Shown here: positions 39,085-48,493 of the stretch, in pieces
Layout of the letters: each line of letters opens with the position of its first letter
How positions within the stretch are numbered: position 1 is the first letter of the stretch
Assembly (NCBI GenBank): GCA_019429225.1
Contig: JAHYJK010000006.1
Location: forward strand, 1-54,710
Source of the DNA: Anaerolineaceae bacterium
GTDB lineage: Bacteria; Chloroflexota; Anaerolineae; Anaerolineales; Anaerolineaceae
Reading direction: 5' to 3'
Length of the DNA: 54,710 bases
Program-made: the position numbers and the translations under genes
The notes under the pieces: model-generated
The model's input: only the letters and a program-made list of their open reading frames with translations
Told to the model about the DNA's origin: nothing
Database searches by the model: none

Positions 39085-40143
39085 TTACCTGCCAGAATTT
39101 AATGAAAACCAAATATAAAGCCAGAAGGGAATCAGTCCACCTGCTAGAAGAAATGCTAAAAGTGCTAACAATGCCGTTTTCCAATCAAAAGTTCCAGATT
39201 GTTTTTTATCAATGCTCGAAGAGTATGGTGTTATTTTCGATTTTTGCTCAGCTGATGATGATTCAAGTAAGGCAGAAGATTGGTTATTTTGGCTGTTGAT
39301 TTTGTAGGATTCTTTTAAGTTTTCCAATACTCTTCCAAATTGATCGGCTGTGCGATAACGACTTGTTTGTTCTTTGGAGAGAACCTTTAGTATTATTTGA
39401 TCAAGGGTGAGTGGAACCTCTGGATTAATATTTCGTGTAGAAATTGGTAATACTTCTTTGTGCATGCGCGTTAATTCAGTCGCATCTTTTGAGTAGAAGG
39501 GTAACTTACCAGTTACCATTTCATAAAGAACAATTCCCAATGAATACACATCAGAAGCCGGGGAAGGTGGAAGCCCTTCTGCTTGTTCAGGGGAGAGGTA
39601 TTGAGGTGAACCCCAAACATAGGCATTTTTCTCCTCAGGCTGGATGGTTGTCAATGCTCGTGCAATCCCGAAATCAGTGACTTTTAATCGACCATCCGGT
39701 GAAACAAGCATGTTGTGGGGTTTAATATCACAATGGACTAATCCGGCCCTATGAGCGTAACCGATACCTTGCGCAGCCTGAATAATTAAGTCGAGAGCTT
39801 TATCAGTTGGAATGACTTGCAGTTCACGAATCATGGATTTTAAATTTGTTCCAGGAACATATTCCATGATAATAAACAAGCGTTCACCGTCTAAACCAAA
39901 ATCATGAACTGTTACAATATTTGGATGTGAAAGATTTGCGGCTGCTTTTGCTTCCTGATGAAACCTTTTTCGAAACCCCTCATCTTTTGAAAAATCCGGT
40001 CGTAATATTTTTACCGCTACGTATCGTTCCAGGTTCAAATCTTTAGCACGATAAACAACTGCCATTCCTCCAGATCCTAATGTCTGGAGTAATTGATATC
40101 TATTCGCAAGGATTGGAATCGCTGGATTATGATTTTCAGTCAT
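39085..40143 (-). CDS. Membrane-anchored Ser/Thr protein kinase (PknB/PrkC-like catalytic domain)
   Basis: A Hanks-type kinase spanning about residues 12-280: G-loop LGSGGMAVVYRAKD, VAVKILR lysine, HRD-equivalent VHCDIKPHNML (Cys replaces Arg), VTDFGIARALT and SPEQAEGLPPSPASDVYSL. A linker of about 45 residues leads to one C-terminal transmembrane helix (LLALLAFLLAGGLIPFWLYI) with almost nothing outside, so unlike PrkC it has no PASTA sensor. It is expected to act at the inner face of the membrane. The rpe and kinase genes are in one unit. Divergent from the SH3 gene. Confidence 0.93.
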   Translation of the reverse strand: MTENHNPAIPILANRYQLLQTLGSGGMAVVYRAKDLNLERYVAVKILRPDFSKDEGFRKRFHQEAKAAANLSHPNIVTVHDFGLDGERLFIIMEYVPGTNLKSMIRELQVIPTDKALDLIIQAAQGIGYAHRAGLVHCDIKPHNMLVSPDGRLKVTDFGIARALTTIQPEEKNAYVWGSPQYLSPEQAEGLPPSPASDVYSLGIVLYEMVTGKLPFYSKDATELTRMHKEVLPISTRNINPEVPLTLDQIILKVLSKEQTSRYRTADQFGRVLENLKESYKINSQNNQSSALLESSSAEQKSKITPYSSSIDKKQSGTFDWKTALLALLAFLLAGGLIPFWLYIWFSLNSGR

Positions 40144-40266: not shown

Positions 40267-40731
40267 ATGAAAAGAAGTTGGCTGCCACTGATAATAGGAT
40301 TTGTGATCACGATTCTTATCCTGTTTTCTGTTTTTATTTTTTTGATATTTCTTCCAAAAAAACAAACAGTGGAAGATAAGATTGCGTTAATTTCGGTTAT
40401 ACCAGCACTAACATCAACGCCAGTTGTTGGATTAACAATAGTCCCAACACCCACCATCGAAATAACTGAAACCATTGAAAATAATTACAAATTTAAAGTA
40501 GGTGAATTTGTTCAGATTACAGGAACATCCGGAGAAGGTCTGAGACTTCGATCCGAACCTGGTAGATCCTTCAGTGTGAATTTTATTGGGATGGATGCAG
40601 AAGTTTTTGAAGTAATCGATGGCCCAGTTGAATCTGACGGGTTTATCTGGTGGTATCTCGAAGCACCATACGATAAAACCAGAAATGGTTGGTCTGTGGA
40701 TGAATACTTACAGGAAGTAACAGTACCATAG
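40267..40731 (+). CDS. SH3-domain protein with N-terminal membrane anchor
   Basis: A 154-residue protein with an N-terminal transmembrane helix (LPLIIGFVITILILFSVFIF), a Thr/Pro-rich linker (STPVVGLTIVPTPT) and a C-terminal bacterial SH3-like domain (GEGLRLRSEPGRSFSVNF, IWWYLEAPYDKTRNGWS). SH3b domains outside the membrane often bind peptidoglycan peptides or mediate protein contacts. The gene is ten bases upstream of a DUF971 gene and divergent from the kinase gene; a role as envelope sensor or partner is inference. Confidence 0.8.
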   Translation: MKRSWLPLIIGFVITILILFSVFIFLIFLPKKQTVEDKIALISVIPALTSTPVVGLTIVPTPTIEITETIENNYKFKVGEFVQITGTSGEGLRLRSEPGRSFSVNFIGMDAEVFEVIDGPVESDGFIWWYLEAPYDKTRNGWSVDEYLQEVTVP

Positions 40732-42730: not shown

Positions 42731-44608
42731 CTGGAGACACGACGAATTACTTCCAGTTTTAATTCATCAACTTCAAACGCAGTAAAGCAATTGGAATCAG
42801 GTATCGTGCTTTTCAATCGATACCAAATCCAGGATGTTATCGGTATTGGAGGTATGGGATCGGTTTATCGAGCACGCGATCTGCATTTTCCTAATGTGAT
42901 TAAATTAGTTGCTGTTAAGGAAATGATCAACAATGCACCTGATCCTTTAGTTCGACAAACCATAATTCAGAATTTTGAGCGTGAAGCGAATATTTTAGTA
43001 ACTCTCAACCATGTCGCGATTCCTCAAATTTTTGATTTTTTTTCAATAGACGAAAGATCTTATCTGGTATTGGAATACGTTCATGGAAGAGATCTGGAAG
43101 CAATTCTCCAGGAAAACAATGAGCCCTTACATGAAGATAATGTCATTGTATGGGCTATTGAATTATGTGACGTATTGGAATATTTGCATTCATATAAGCC
43201 AGAGCCCATCATTTTTAGAGACATGAAGCCCAGCAATGTGATGATAAATCAACAAGGAAGAATTGTGTTGGTAGATTTTGGCATCGCAAAAAACTTCAAA
43301 ACTGGACAGAAAGGGACAATGATTGGAACCGAAGGTTATTCACCTCCGGAACAATATCGTGGCGACGCGACACCAGTTGCGGATATTTATGCTCTTGGTG
43401 CCACTTTGCATCATTTATTAACAAATCATGATCCAAGAATGGAAGCACCTTTTTCCTTTTCTGAAAGAAAAATTCGTTCCATTAACTCAAGAGTTTCTCT
43501 TGAACTTGAAATCGTCATTGATACTGCCCTTCAATATAATCCTGAAGAGCGATTTCAGAGCGTTGCAGATATGAAAAATGCATTATTGTCCGTTGCAAAA
43601 AAAACTGGCGCTCTATCCAGGTTGCCGATGACAAAAAAGAGTCAATCTCAATCAATAAAACCCTTGTGGACATTTAAATGCGAGGATGAAATTCGAGGAT
43701 CAGTTACTTTTGATAATGGAAAAATATATTGCGGAAGTTATGATAATAATCTTTATGTTCTAGATGCTTCAGACGGATCTTTTTTATGGAAATTTCCGTC
43801 ATATGGTGGCATTGTTGGAAAACCAGCAATATTTGAAAATAATATTTATATTGGATCTGAAGATAAGAAAATGTATTGTATTTCTGCGTGGACTGGCAAA
43901 GAACTGTGGACTTTTTCAACGGATGGTCCGATTAGGAGCTCAGTAAAAATTGCAGAAGGACATGCGTTTTTTGGCTCTGATGATGGCTATTTATACGCAG
44001 TAAATTTAGTCTCTAATAAAATAACGTGGCGGATAGATTCCGGTTCTGCTGTGCGAACCACTCCGTTTATTACAAAAGACAATGTCTACTTTGGTAATGA
44101 ATATGGCGATTTTTTCTGTCTTGATTTTAGCGGTCATGTGCGGTGGAGATTTAAGACTAAAAAAGCAATAACTTCATCTCCAATTGTAGATGGAGGAATG
44201 GTGTTTTTTGCTTCTCTCGATTCAACATTTTACGCATTAGATGCAAAGTCTGGATGGGTTGTCTGGCGTTTTAGAATGGAAAAGGGTTCTATATCATCTC
44301 CCTACAAATCCGAAAACTATCTTGTATTTGGTTCAGCTGATAACCACATTTATTGTTTAGAATCTGGTAATGCCAGAGAGATTTGGAGATATAAAACTGA
44401 ACATCAAGTCAGTGGCTCCCCAATTGTTCATAATAATTCAGTTTATTGTGGATCTGCAGACGGCACACTTTACTCACTTGATTTAAAAAATGGACAGTTA
44501 AGGTGGAAATTTAAGACAGATGATCTAATCACCGGATCACCAGTCATAATTAATAATATTTTATACATAGGATCTAGTGATCATCTGATTTATGCACTTT
44601 ATGCATAG
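42731..44608 (+). CDS. Soluble Ser/Thr protein kinase with C-terminal PQQ-type beta-propeller
   Basis: The start appears to be CTG at 42731: AGGAGG with a five-base spacer lies directly before it, while the next in-frame candidate, TTG at 42791, has no ribosome site. This gives 625 residues. The kinase domain (about 30-290) has IGIGGMGSVYRARD, VAVKEM, IFRDMKPSNVMIN (His of HRD replaced by Phe), VDFGIAKNF and YSPPEQYRGDATPVADIYAL. After a Ser/Gln-rich linker eight W-containing repeats of about 40 residues follow (starts WTFKCEDEI, WKFPSYGGI, WTFSTDGPI, WRIDSGSAV, WRFKTKKAI, WRFRMEKGS, WRYKTEHQV, WKFKTDDLI), forming a PQQ/quinoprotein-like propeller. There is no transmembrane helix or signal peptide, so the propeller is cytoplasmic and may sense a ligand or bind substrate. 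First gene of the signalling operon. Confidence 0.92.
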   Translation: METRRITSSFNSSTSNAVKQLESGIVLFNRYQIQDVIGIGGMGSVYRARDLHFPNVIKLVAVKEMINNAPDPLVRQTIIQNFEREANILVTLNHVAIPQIFDFFSIDERSYLVLEYVHGRDLEAILQENNEPLHEDNVIVWAIELCDVLEYLHSYKPEPIIFRDMKPSNVMINQQGRIVLVDFGIAKNFKTGQKGTMIGTEGYSPPEQYRGDATPVADIYALGATLHHLLTNHDPRMEAPFSFSERKIRSINSRVSLELEIVIDTALQYNPEERFQSVADMKNALLSVAKKTGALSRLPMTKKSQSQSIKPLWTFKCEDEIRGSVTFDNGKIYCGSYDNNLYVLDASDGSFLWKFPSYGGIVGKPAIFENNIYIGSEDKKMYCISAWTGKELWTFSTDGPIRSSVKIAEGHAFFGSDDGYLYAVNLVSNKITWRIDSGSAVRTTPFITKDNVYFGNEYGDFFCLDFSGHVRWRFKTKKAITSSPIVDGGMVFFASLDSTFYALDAKSGWVVWRFRMEKGSISSPYKSENYLVFGSADNHIYCLESGNAREIWRYKTEHQVSGSPIVHNNSVYCGSADGTLYSLDLKNGQLRWKFKTDDLITGSPVIINNILYIGSSDHLIYALYA

Positions 44609-44631
44609 CACAATTGATCTGGGAGGGTAAA

Positions 44632-45531
44632 ATGGTAGATTTTTTTAAAAAATTATTTGGTAGTAAAAAAAATGAAATCTCCAACATTAATGTAGAGACT
44701 GCGCCATTATCAGAGGAACAACTAAAGTTTGTTACCAGAGAAGATCCCATTGTTACTCCTTCTCAAATAATAGTCGGAATAGGTCAGTCAGTTGGGAGAC
44801 AAAGAGATCATAACGAGGATGCTTTATTTTATTTCAATTCTAATTTTGCGAATTGTTCAAAAGATATTTCTTTTGGTTTATTCATTGTTGCTGATGGCAT
44901 GGGGGGGCATGAATATGGAGAAGTAGCCAGTAGTGTTGCATCAAAAACGTTAGGAGATTATGTTGTCCAAAAACTTTATTCTCCATTATTCAATCCCAAT
45001 TCAACAACTCCACCAAATGAGAGTATTCAAGAAATCATTGAGAATGGTATAAAGCAAGCACAAAATGCTGTTATGCAAAAGGCCCCTGGTGGTGGTACAA
45101 CTATAACTGCCGGGCTGATACTCGGTGATCAAATTACCATTGGTCATGTGGGGGATAGTAGGTTGTATTTTATTTTTCCAGATGGAAGAATTGAAGCGAA
45201 AACAAATGATCATTCTTTAGTTAGAAGGTTAGTTGATCTTGGACAAATATCTGAAACTGAGGCTAAAAATCATCCAAATAAAAATGTATTATATAGAGCA
45301 TTAGGCCAATCAGAACCTTTCAGGCCGGACCTAGTGAATTTAACCATCCCAAAACCAGGGTATATTCTGATTTGTAGTGATGGATTATGGGGAACTATTG
45401 GAGATGAAGAATTATTCAGGTTAGCAACCAATTCAGAAAACCCCTCTATCTCGTGTTCAAAAATGGTTGATGCTTCTAATAGAGCAGGTGGACCAGATAA
45501 TATCAGTGTAATCTTAATTAAAATTATGTAA
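44632..45531 (+). CDS. PP2C-family Ser/Thr protein phosphatase
   Basis: A 299-residue metal-dependent phosphatase. Motifs are GRQRDHNEDALFYF, VADGMGGHEYGEVASS, GHVGDSRLYFIFPDGRI, LICSDGLWG and AGGPDNISVILIKI, all the acidic metal ligands being present. An N-terminal basic segment (MVDFFKKLFGSKKNE) precedes the domain. I chose the ATG at 44632, with GGAGGG five bases upstream; an in-frame TTG at 44614 is inferior. It should reverse phosphorylation by the kinase encoded just upstream. The next gene starts five bases after its stop. Confidence 0.95.
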   Translation: MVDFFKKLFGSKKNEISNINVETAPLSEEQLKFVTREDPIVTPSQIIVGIGQSVGRQRDHNEDALFYFNSNFANCSKDISFGLFIVADGMGGHEYGEVASSVASKTLGDYVVQKLYSPLFNPNSTTPPNESIQEIIENGIKQAQNAVMQKAPGGGTTITAGLILGDQITIGHVGDSRLYFIFPDGRIEAKTNDHSLVRRLVDLGQISETEAKNHPNKNVLYRALGQSEPFRPDLVNLTIPKPGYILICSDGLWGTIGDEELFRLATNSENPSISCSKMVDASNRAGGPDNISVILIKIM

Positions 45532-45535
45532 TCTT

Positions 45536-47002
45536 ATGAATTATTACAATTTATTAGGATTACCTTTTGATGCGACACAAGAAGAGATTAGGAAAGCTTA
45601 TTTTGATTCTGCAAAAAAGCATCATCCTGATCTCAATACATCTTTTGATTTGCGGGAACGATTTTTCCAAATTCAAAATGCATATGAAACTCTGAGAAAT
45701 GAAGAAAAAAGAAAAGAATACAATCAATATTTAGATTATCCACAAGTTGAAGATAAATCCATTCAAATAAATGCTTATTACAGCAGATCAATAATTCCAT
45801 TAATTTCTGAAGCACAAGCCTTTTATTTATTATTAGATATATTTTCTACAGAGAATGTTAAGAAAGAGGACCTACCGAATATAAATTTGTGTATTGTGCT
45901 TGATAAATCAACTTCCATGCAGGGGGAAATAATGGATAAGTTAAAAAAAGAAATTATTAACCTTGTCCATGAGTTGAAGGATGAAGACATTTTTTCAATT
46001 GTTACATTCAGTGATCGTGCAGAGACCGTAATACCCCCAATTAAGGTCAAAGATTTCGGCAATGAAGTGGCCAAAATATACTCAATTTTTGCATCTGGTT
46101 CAACTGAAATCTTAAAAGGATTAGAAGAAGGTTTTTCTATATTACGAAATTTAGAAAATAATTCTCCAAAGTTATTGTATCTAATAACTGATGGACATAC
46201 ATATGGAGATGAAGAAGAGTGCAACAAGATCGTTAAAGTAGCCAGTGATGAAGGAATAGTTTTTCAGGCAGTTGGTGTTGGGAAAGATTGGAATGATGAT
46301 TTTCTTGATAATTTATCAAAAATTTCAGGGGGGGAAACACAATTTGTAAGTTCATCCCAGGAACTGTATAATTTGTTAAAAGTAAAATTACACAATTTTA
46401 GTGTTATATTCTCTAAATCAATAAAAATTTATTTTAACTTGCACCCAAAGGTGAGGATTAATTATGCATTCCGTTTGAGTCCTGATCTATCTCCGGTAGA
46501 TACTGGACCAGAAATACATTTGGGAAGTTTGTATTCTGGACAGCATCTTAGAGTAATTTTTGAATTTTTTATTGATGAATTACCCATAAATATTAAAGAA
46601 TTAAGATTGTCTCATGGGAGTATAAAAGTAGAAATCCCTTCAAATATAATCTATATGAAACGATTTTTTTATGATTTCAAAAGACCAGTGTTACCCAAAG
46701 TTGAGAAAGAAAAAATTCCACCTGTAATTGTAAATGCCTTATCAAGTCTTTCACTTTATCGATTGCAAGAAAAAGCACGTGAGGATGTCAAAGAAGGGAA
46801 TTATAATAATGCAACCAGGCGATTACAAAATTTAGCAGCGCATCTAGTTAGTAGAGGAAATCGCGATTTAGCGAAAACAATTATGCAGGAAGTAGAAAAT
46901 TTACAAAATAACAATAATATTTCGGAATTAGGAAAGAAAAAAATCAAATACGGAACAAGATCCTTATTAATGTTACCTGAACCCTTAAGGGAGGAAAAAT
47001 GA
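45536..47002 (+). CDS. J-domain and von Willebrand A domain fusion protein
   Basis: Residues 1-66 form a DnaJ J-domain (NYYNLLGLPFDATQEEIRKAY, HPD at 30-32, YETLRNEEKRKEY), which stimulates Hsp70 ATPase. Residues about 113-285 form a vWA domain with a complete MIDAS: DKSTS (123-127), Thr in ASGSTEILKGLEEGF, and Asp in YLITDGHTYGDEEE. The remainder (about 290-488) is a beta-rich then helical region I do not recognise, with a TPR-like KEGNYNNATRRLQNLAAHLV stretch. J-vWA fusions are uncommon. Placed directly after kinase and PP2C genes, it may be a phospho-regulated adaptor that presents metal-dependent ligands to Hsp70. Starts five bases after PP2C stop; its stop overlaps the FHA start. Confidence 0.9.
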   Translation: MNYYNLLGLPFDATQEEIRKAYFDSAKKHHPDLNTSFDLRERFFQIQNAYETLRNEEKRKEYNQYLDYPQVEDKSIQINAYYSRSIIPLISEAQAFYLLLDIFSTENVKKEDLPNINLCIVLDKSTSMQGEIMDKLKKEIINLVHELKDEDIFSIVTFSDRAETVIPPIKVKDFGNEVAKIYSIFASGSTEILKGLEEGFSILRNLENNSPKLLYLITDGHTYGDEEECNKIVKVASDEGIVFQAVGVGKDWNDDFLDNLSKISGGETQFVSSSQELYNLLKVKLHNFSVIFSKSIKIYFNLHPKVRINYAFRLSPDLSPVDTGPEIHLGSLYSGQHLRVIFEFFIDELPINIKELRLSHGSIKVEIPSNIIYMKRFFYDFKRPVLPKVEKEKIPPVIVNALSSLSLYRLQEKAREDVKEGNYNNATRRLQNLAAHLVSRGNRDLAKTIMQEVENLQNNNNISELGKKKIKYGTRSLLMLPEPLREEK

Positions 47003-47529
47003 TCGTTTGCCCAAATTGCCATCACAAAGAATTGCCTGGAGCACTATTTTGTAGTGAATGCGGAGCGAGGTTAATCTCTCTAGATTATTTGACGACGCAA
47101 TCAATTAAAAAAACAAATACAGACAATCTAGATGAGTCTATGGTTGAGGAATTAAAAGATAAAATTAGTTCAGCTGAGGATTCTTTCAGTAAACATGACA
47201 TATCTTCTGATTTGGCACTTTACCTGATTGAAGCAAAACAGACTTTGCAACTTGCAGGCAGATCTGAATATACTTTAGGTAGGATTGCTGAAGGGCAACC
47301 GATCCTGCCGGACGTGGATCTTTCGCCGTTTGATGCTTACGCCCAGGGAGTATCACGTTTGCATGCTGCTCTAAAAATAAACAAAAATCGAATTGCGATT
47401 ATGGATTTGGGTTCATCAAATGGCACGAGGGTGAATGGACAGAAAATTGTTCCTCATGTAGACTATCCCATCAGTCATAATGATCAAATTGCTCTTGGAA
47501 AATTAAGAATTCAAATATTAATAAAATAG
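46999..47529 (+). CDS. Zinc-ribbon and FHA-domain protein
   Basis: A 176-residue protein. The zinc ribbon is CPNC (4, 7) and CSEC (18, 21). A linker of about 60 residues, with an amphipathic acidic part, precedes the FHA domain (about 88-176): YTLGR, VSRLHAALKI, LGSSNGTRVNGQKI and SHNDQIALGKLRI, with the Arg, Ser, His and Asn residues that read phosphothreonine all present. It probably reads kinase output. The ATG overlaps the TGA of the preceding gene in ATGA, so translation is coupled; GGGAGG lies five bases upstream. Confidence 0.94.
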   Translation: MIVCPNCHHKELPGALFCSECGARLISLDYLTTQSIKKTNTDNLDESMVEELKDKISSAEDSFSKHDISSDLALYLIEAKQTLQLAGRSEYTLGRIAEGQPILPDVDLSPFDAYAQGVSRLHAALKINKNRIAIMDLGSSNGTRVNGQKIVPHVDYPISHNDQIALGKLRIQILIK

Positions 47530-47537
47530 GTAAAAAC

Positions 47538-47777
47538 ATGTACACTGTAATCGTTCATATCAATAATGAAGATCCTGTATTGGGTGAAGTTGAAGATTTA
47601 CCTCAACCAGCTGACCAGATCATCATGCTTAAAAATCCCAGAAAAAAAGATGGAAAAGATGTCCATTATTTAGAACCTAATGTTAATCTGGTGATCTGGC
47701 CATTTCATCGAATTACTTTTATTGAGATAATCCAGGATGTTGAAGAAGATGAAATTATTTCATTCGTAAGAGAATAA
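47538..47777 (+). CDS. 79-residue protein of unknown function in the signalling operon
   Basis: A small acidic protein: MYTVIVHINNEDPVLGEVED, then LPQPADQIIMLKNPRKKDG and VNLVIWPFHRITFIEIIQD, ending in an acidic DVEEDEIISFVRE tail. The alternating hydrophobic pattern suggests a compact beta barrel, resembling small single-domain proteins without a known family. It is eight bases after the FHA gene and two bases before the response regulator, and has a weak ribosome site (AGGTAAAAAC). Its location suggests involvement in the same signalling system; I do not recognise it. Confidence 0.8.
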   Translation: MYTVIVHINNEDPVLGEVEDLPQPADQIIMLKNPRKKDGKDVHYLEPNVNLVIWPFHRITFIEIIQDVEEDEIISFVRE

Positions 47778-47779
47778 TC

Positions 47780-48493
47780 ATGGATGATATTTTAAAAAAT
47801 AAAACGATTTTGGTAGTTGATGATGAAGAGCGTATGGCTCGTTTTATTCGTCTCAATTTAGAGCACGATGGTTTTCAAGTCGTGGAAGCTTACCGAGGGA
47901 TGCAAGCATTGCAACAATATCGAGATTCACTACCTGACCTGGTACTACTGGATGTTATGATGCCAGATATTGACGGTTTTGAAGTATTAAGTATGCTAAG
48001 AGAAATCAGCAATGTACCTGTGATTATGTTAACTGCCAAAGGTGAAGAAGATGATAGGGTGCGTGGTTTGGAGTTAGGTGCAGACGATTATGTTACTAAG
48101 CCTTTTAGCCCTCGTGAATTGGTAAGTCGTGTCCGCGCAGTTTTACGACGGACAGATTCTAGCTCAACCGATTCTCCGGATGTCATTGAAGTCGATGAAC
48201 ATCTGAAGCTAGATTTCTCAAAACGTGAGATTTGGTTGGATGGCGAGTTGGTTAAATTACGACCGACTGAATATAGATTGCTATATCATCTGGTTAAAAA
48301 CGCTGGGTGGGTGTTAACCTACGACCAAATTTTATCCCGAGTCTGGGGCTATGAATACAGAGATGAGCCTCATTATGTCAGGTTATATATAAATTATTTA
48401 CGTCAAAAAATAGAAAAAGATCCATCTAACCCAAAATTTATATTGACTGAAAGGGGAGTGGGCTATCGATTTGTCGATTATAAGAGATTATAA
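47780..48493 (+). CDS. OmpR/PhoB-family response regulator
   Basis: The N-terminal receiver domain has LVVDDEERMARFIRL, the phospho-acceptor LVLLDVMMPDIDGFE (Asp58), MLTAKGEEDDRVRGLELGADD and YVTKPFSPREL. The C-terminal winged-helix DNA-binding domain reads YRLLYHLVKNAGWVLTYDQI, GYEYRDEPHYVRLYINYLRQ and LTERGVGYRFVDY. 237 residues, resembling WalR/MtrA/PhoB. No histidine kinase is nearby. It starts two bases after the 79-residue gene, so it is the last gene of the operon; target Ser/Thr phosphorylation by the upstream kinase is possible, by analogy with WalR, but not shown. Confidence 0.95.
   Translation: MDDILKNKTILVVDDEERMARFIRLNLEHDGFQVVEAYRGMQALQQYRDSLPDLVLLDVMMPDIDGFEVLSMLREISNVPVIMLTAKGEEDDRVRGLELGADDYVTKPFSPRELVSRVRAVLRRTDSSSTDSPDVIEVDEHLKLDFSKREIWLDGELVKLRPTEYRLLYHLVKNAGWVLTYDQILSRVWGYEYRDEPHYVRLYINYLRQKIEKDPSNPKFILTERGVGYRFVDYKRL

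Follow-up and report, generated by a model that had tools for sequence, protein, structure and literature searches.

The 54,710-nucleotide stretch of Anaerolineaceae DNA analysed here (the window) encodes a J-vWA protein, a J-domain joined to a body that profile and model comparisons place with the archaeal scaffold ArnB. Its gene sits in a conserved block with genes for a kinase, a PP2C phosphatase and an ArnA-like zinc ribbon-FHA protein. The reading that we favour by a modest degree is that J-vWA would be the scaffold of a cytoplasmic, ArnA/ArnB-like phosphorylation switch with a J-domain added at its N-terminus, and within this switch we infer roles for the kinase, the FHA protein, PP2C and DnaK. 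The data suggest an Hsp70-coupled variant of a type of phosphorylation switch that has been studied in archaea alone, ArnA/ArnB having been treated until now as an archaeal motility regulator. In a 2026 structural paper, ArnB is the only subunit for which bacterial look-alikes are named; across Anaerolineae, the genes for both subunits stand in one block with those for the kinase and PP2C and with two more. J-less versions occur elsewhere in Chloroflexota and cyanobacteria offer a partial parallel, so that this would make a wider bacterial switch, one that could be reconstituted from a single locus.

The J-vWA protein and its ArnB-type body

The protein and its parts are encoded as follows:

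45536..47002, + strand: J-vWA protein, 488 aa, consisting of a J-domain and an ArnB-type scaffold (beta-sandwich, vWA, helical bundle)
45539..45733, + strand: J-domain, aa 2-66 (HPD codons 45623-45631)
45878..46405, + strand: vWA domain (MIDAS DKSTS 45902-45916; T190 46103-46105; D219 46190-46192)
46706..46969, + strand: C-terminal helical bundle (AF2 helices 396-477), counterpart of the regulatory helix bundle of ArnB
46955-46966, + strand: T474-R-x-L477 at the end of the helical bundle, conserved in orthologues

The gene is a stop-free, open reading frame of 488 codons. An intact HPD motif and a DKSTS MIDAS in one 488-residue chain, as stated in the original prediction, were recovered in the ORF translation, in Pfam and in the orthologue alignment. 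DnaJ (PF00226) matches residues 2-63 with an E value of 4.9e-19 and VWA (PF00092) residues 117-275 with 2.3e-18, both far over their curated cut-offs; the prediction was to fall if profile searches gave no support to the vWA fold, and they do support it. HPD occupies residues 30-32, between helices II and III of the J-fold. The MIDAS is complete, with D123, S125 and S127 of DKSTS (residues 123-127) joined by T190 and D219; these five residues are invariant in 25 aligned orthologues, and the motif, including the Thr and the last Asp, is identical in 96 of 96 aligned rows. Across those 96 orthologues the mean frequency of the commonest residue is 0.62 in the J-domain, vWA domain and helical bundle alike, and 0.32 in the linker that follows the J-domain. 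A TerF-like vWA model also matches above its cut-off, at 35.9 bits, and is far outscored by the general VWA model.

No J-vWA fusion of this type is described in the literature searched, which covered few subscription journals. Full-length J-vWA orthologues on 80 further contigs (the best 80 loci from a scan of GTDB contigs, all of them named Chloroflexota records) rule out a chance fusion, a frameshift or an assembly artefact. One orthologue (G103:C8:49805-51244) carries an in-frame TGA.

The AF2 model of J-vWA, built with 25 orthologues as input, has a mean pLDDT of 88.3 and a pTM of 0.84, and its secondary structure shows both the J-domain and the vWA domain. The vWA domain is inserted in a beta-sandwich and followed by a C-terminal helix bundle, the build that characterizes ArnB. 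The best non-J match of the J-vWA family among PDB profiles is ArnB of Sulfolobus acidocaldarius (8s05_A, E 2.1e-22, residues 115-462), and the match is retained at 5.5e-22 when the J-domain is left out of the family profile. By structure comparison with VIA-align, residues 74-480 of J-vWA align with ArnB over 370 residues at Z 31.4; the Catenulispora acidiphila vWA protein 4fx5 reaches 36.1, the ArnB paralogue vWA2 26.6, and other vWA chains about 25 and lower, with the vWA domain alone matched or with a large deviation. By profile and predicted structure, then, the non-J part of J-vWA is a three-domain, ArnB-type scaffold. Pfam does not place it in the strict ArnB family, with ArnB_C under its cut-off of 26.3 bits (14.5 for the window protein, 16.2 at best), and the likeness is one of anatomy. 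Because sequence identity to ArnB is only about 20%, and because 4fx5, which has no known partner, fits slightly better, the fold by itself is no proof that the switch is of the ArnA/ArnB type.

At the end of the bundle, T474, R475 and L477 are invariant in the 25-row alignment and in 17 rows that include J-less members. T474-R-x-L477 lies near the C-terminal Thr sites of ArnB in a comparison made by position only, and the conservation of T474 may be structural. The SIETT and LIETT phospho-motifs of ArnB are not recognisable in the J-vWA helical bundle.

A gene block with a kinase, a phosphatase and an ArnA-like protein

The genes and motifs around J-vWA, all on the same strand, are:

42791..44608, + strand: Ser/Thr kinase (aa 11-256; PF00069, 2.6e-39) fused to a PQQ/BamB-type beta-propeller (PF13360, 5.6e-50)
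44614..45531, + strand: PP2C phosphatase with an unconserved N-terminal extension (Pfam PP2C; NCBIfam Stp1_PP2C 7e-63, just below its cut-off)
44698..44709, + strand: T-A-P-L motif of PP2C (residues 29-32), a candidate FHA ligand once phosphorylated, from its conservation in orthologues
46999..47529, + strand: ArnA-like protein with an N-terminal zinc ribbon (CPNC..CSEC; PF13240, 7.9e-06) and an FHA domain (PF00498, 3.2e-14)
47092..47106, + strand: TTQSI motif (T33..I36) in the zinc ribbon-FHA linker, a candidate self-ligand like the ETT motif of GarA/OdhI
47538..47777, + strand: 79-aa protein of an undescribed family, the sixth gene of the block, between the FHA and response-regulator genes
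47780..48493, + strand: OmpR/PhoB-type response regulator adjoining the block (PF00072, PF00486)

Pfam bears out the earlier assignment of the two genes upstream of J-vWA: the first encodes a Ser/Thr kinase joined to a PQQ-type propeller, the second a PP2C phosphatase. Active-site motifs are intact in both, including the catalytic K (VAVK), FRD and DFG of the kinase, and the kinase-propeller contains no transmembrane-like segment (maximum 19-aa hydropathy 1.44). At two loci (L022 of genome G001, and L110) a frameshift or an assembly error divides the kinase-propeller gene between two ORFs, and the other genes are intact.

Downstream, the start of the FHA gene overlaps the J-vWA stop by 4 bases. 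The top PDB matches of the zinc ribbon-FHA profile are ArnA entries 5a8i and 8s05_C (E about 2e-12), and the protein shares with ArnA the layout of zinc ribbon, linker and FHA domain. The four zinc-ribbon cysteines (C4, C7, C18, C21) and the FHA positions G94, R95, S119, R120, H122, N141, G142 and T143 are invariant, giving a four-Cys zinc finger and a C-terminal FHA domain with its pThr-binding residues, as in ArnA. That the best profile matches of the vWA body and of the FHA protein are the two subunits of one complex makes a bacterial ArnA/ArnB-type phospho-switch probable. Counting against this is the fact that FHA domains are alike everywhere and that, by structure, ArnA ranks only tenth among similar FHA domains. 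The ArnB-type body, the ArnA-like downstream gene, the short motifs described below and the sixth gene had all gone unrecognised in the original prediction.

Two short Thr motifs look like candidate FHA ligands. Among the main features that FHA domains recognise is a hydrophobic residue three positions after the Thr (+3), and GarA, OdhI and DgcB bind a motif of this kind near their own N-terminus (PMC6733907). The zinc ribbon-FHA linker, predicted to be disordered (pLDDT about 50), contains T-x-x-[ILVF] in 34 of 42 non-redundant sequences (12.2 expected by shuffling) and the narrower T[QH]x[ILF] in 20 of the 42 (0.8 expected). In the PP2C extension, TxP[LVIF] occurs in 27 of 30 non-redundant orthologues against an expectation of 2.4, none of 1000 shuffles exceeding 8; the neighbouring columns, from residue 17 to 48, are all conserved below 60% and mostly below 45%. 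Several J-less Chloroflexota blocks likewise have TAPL, TEPL, TTPL or TQPL in the PP2C extension and TTASL or TTANI in the FHA linker.

The block is widespread. A close orthologue, covering at least the part from the vWA domain to the C-terminus at E 1e-60 or better, is present in 27 of 40 related genomes; in a further genome, G015, there are several copies that match more weakly. Loci of the related genomes keep the order kinase-propeller, PP2C, (J-)vWA, zinc ribbon-FHA and response regulator, and block order is the same at 80 of 80 Anaerolineae loci wherever the contig reaches far enough. Gene order is also kept in J-less Chloroflexota loci. To the earlier question of whether homologues always adjoin kinase, PP2C and FHA genes, the answer is thus yes as far as contigs reach, and because these genes always accompany J-vWA, the phosphorylation control proposed earlier is likely. 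The conserved block and neighbours rule out a one-off horizontal gene. Beyond the phylum, genes for a J-less vWA protein, a zinc ribbon-FHA protein, PP2C and a kinase follow one another on a plasmid of the cyanobacterium Gloeothece verrucosa (Cy782202, L181), so that the set extends outside Chloroflexota; the plasmid is typed as conjugative, and its kinase is an FHA-kinase. In the plasmid search for J-vWA relatives, the best-covering matches lacked the J-domain.

The 79-aa gene was found at 76 of 76 loci, and its family (consensus NEDPVLGEVEELP...NPRRRDGKDLHYL...VIWP..RINFIE) in 91 of 301 surveyed Chloroflexota genomes; the protein has no Pfam or NCBIfam match. In most compared genomes that have both, it follows the vWA gene at a distance of about 0.5-0.9 kb. 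This placing holds in J-less genomes too (e.g., G073, G156 and G188), and does not in G123 or G281. The response regulator is a conserved neighbour in Anaerolineae; in J-less Chloroflexota, most loci did not show it immediately downstream of the block. No histidine kinase gene was recognised in the ORF listing of the response-regulator end of the window and no MoxR AAA+ ATPase on reading the ORFs around its block, and promoter and terminator scans gave no more matches than shuffled sequence. At one G015 locus (L048, 1-19897), an expanded island resembles a duplicated version of the block: it has two kinase genes, three genes that contain PP2C, several for FHA proteins and at least four for vWA proteins.

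The proposed switch and related systems

In Sulfolobus, ArnA contacts ArnB with its zinc finger, at the beta-sandwich and the helical bundle, and with its FHA domain, at a phospho-Thr of the bundle (PMC12852372); the kinase ArnC phosphorylates the bundle Thr, FHA then binds tightly, and PP2A reverses the reaction (PMC12852372, PMC6509490, PMC7472852). We propose that the bacterial proteins may work along similar lines. The cognate kinase would act on Thr residues in the bundle, with T474 as the best candidate, and on those in the linker motifs; by binding the phospho-Thr, the FHA domain would turn a loose, zinc-ribbon-mediated complex into a tight one; and PP2C, tethered through its own TAPL motif, would reverse the phosphorylation. 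The J-domain precedes the first beta-strand and would lie near the place where the ArnA zinc finger docks in ArnB, from which it could recruit DnaK. The chaperone might then remodel or reset the complex, or Hsp70 might be handed a partner that is bound to the scaffold. The adjoining response regulator is a candidate for the output.

Like ArnA/ArnB, which works with kinases ArnC and ArnD and phosphatase PP2A, the bacterial block sets a zinc finger-FHA protein beside a vWA protein with a beta-sandwich, full MIDAS and C-terminal helix bundle, and a Ser/Thr kinase and a phosphatase accompany both. Unlike the archaeal system, it includes the kinase and phosphatase genes, the latter a PP2C rather than a PP2A, and it adds a J-domain, the 79-aa gene and the response regulator, with no archaellum. 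The 4fx5 protein shares the tripartite fold at the highest Z but is without a J-domain and is cited in the ArnA/ArnB papers for its fold only, so it offers no mechanism. GarA, OdhI and DgcB resemble the FHA protein in pairing an FHA domain with a conserved Thr motif, hydrophobic at +3, in a flexible N-terminal region; here, in contrast, the motif stands between zinc ribbon and FHA, and PP2C has a second, similar one. As in class C J-domain proteins, a J-domain with HPD is joined to an unrelated domain. Foldseek also matched the core of Sec23/Sec24 (vWA, beta-sandwich and helical domain, with a zinc finger), which is distant; J-vWA is without a gelsolin domain and without coat or GTPase context.

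The J-domain, Hsp70 and competing readings

In the 96-row alignment, all 92 sequences with an intact J-domain retain HPD; the other four rows are the J-less L044, L045 and L046 and the degenerate L047. The J region has dN/dS values of 0.07 and 0.19 against the two closest relatives (a comparison with L023 was left out for an indel outside the J region). By these sequence comparisons, the J-domain and its HPD triad are under purifying selection in the window's clade. Against the favoured reading, the J contact surface differs from that of DnaJ, the position of K26 in E. coli being Phe in 61 of the 96 rows. Two full-length, DnaK-type Hsp70 genes are present in the window's genome, one of them beside dnaJ.

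The block also persists without the J-domain. Orthologues that lack it occupy the same block in other Chloroflexota (L158, L160, L163-L165) as well as in three genomes of the window's own order (L044-L046), and the J profile persists without HPD in L047 (SRS, 29.3 bits), L169 (QPN, 45.6 bits) and L172 (triad gone, 25.8 bits). In the other direction, G050, G123 and G092 (the last with a partial Pfam match) have a J-domain with HPD outside class Anaerolineae but within the phylum, and acquisition of the J-domain only in Anaerolineae was rejected. On the tree, its presence and absence takes about seven changes with inner branches open, and gain and loss are not told apart. Since several lineages keep the module with the J-domain absent or HPD-dead, Hsp70 coupling is probably an add-on to the core function of J-vWA, which is unlikely to be that of a co-chaperone. 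The original prediction of an Hsp70 co-chaperone stands in part: purifying selection on J and HPD and the presence of Hsp70 genes speak for it, and the persistence of the module after J loss or HPD decay speaks against it.

Within the ArnA/ArnB-type reading, a tentative form is that the J-domain would recruit DnaK to dismantle or refold the FHA-bound complex, making chaperone availability (protein stress) a direct input of the Ser/Thr kinase pathway. If so, HPD-dead or J-less lineages would be natural mutants of the coupling. The J-domain would tie Hsp70 directly to bacterial Ser/Thr signalling, in a way that is open to testing, with the HPD-losing lineages as built-in controls.

Alternatively, the J-domain may be a fold kept for protein contacts that is no longer Hsp70-active, the module being a plain ArnA/ArnB-type phospho-switch. 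The lineages just listed, in which the module is retained although J is missing or HPD-less, fit this account, but a purely structural J-domain would not require the invariant HPD of the window's clade, and we hold it unlikely.

Somewhat less likely again is the original view, in which J-vWA is a dedicated co-chaperone of Hsp70, holds a particular client at the MIDAS of its vWA domain and has this binding tuned by the kinase and phosphatase. J and MIDAS are both intact and conserved, and a client at the MIDAS is possible; against this, FHA and kinase genes stand in every locus, and J is lost without loss of the block. Moreover, ArnA and ArnB stay together in EDTA (PMC7472852), so the archaeal relative can do without its MIDAS in the known contact, which argues against a metal-dependent contact as the main one. 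Given this and the ArnB-type body, client binding through the MIDAS is not upheld as it was stated.

Least probable is that J-vWA acts as adaptor in a module for biological conflict or stress, of the TerY/PP2C/kinase or vWA-GTPase kind: vWA, PP2C and kinase genes and DnaJ/HSP70-linked systems are described in conflict contexts (PMC7159879), and the TerF-like match and the expanded L048 island point the same way, but the J-vWA and FHA proteins have no PADLOC match, the kinase and PP2C matches are to general domains, the genes around the block look like housekeeping genes (glnA, rpe, murA), and the conservation of the block is that of core genome rather than patchy.

Two other genes of the window are often near the block too: a second PknB-like kinase without PASTA repeats (39085-40143, - strand), and a small gene (40267-40731, + strand) with no Pfam match that encodes an N-terminal membrane segment and an SH3-like stretch.
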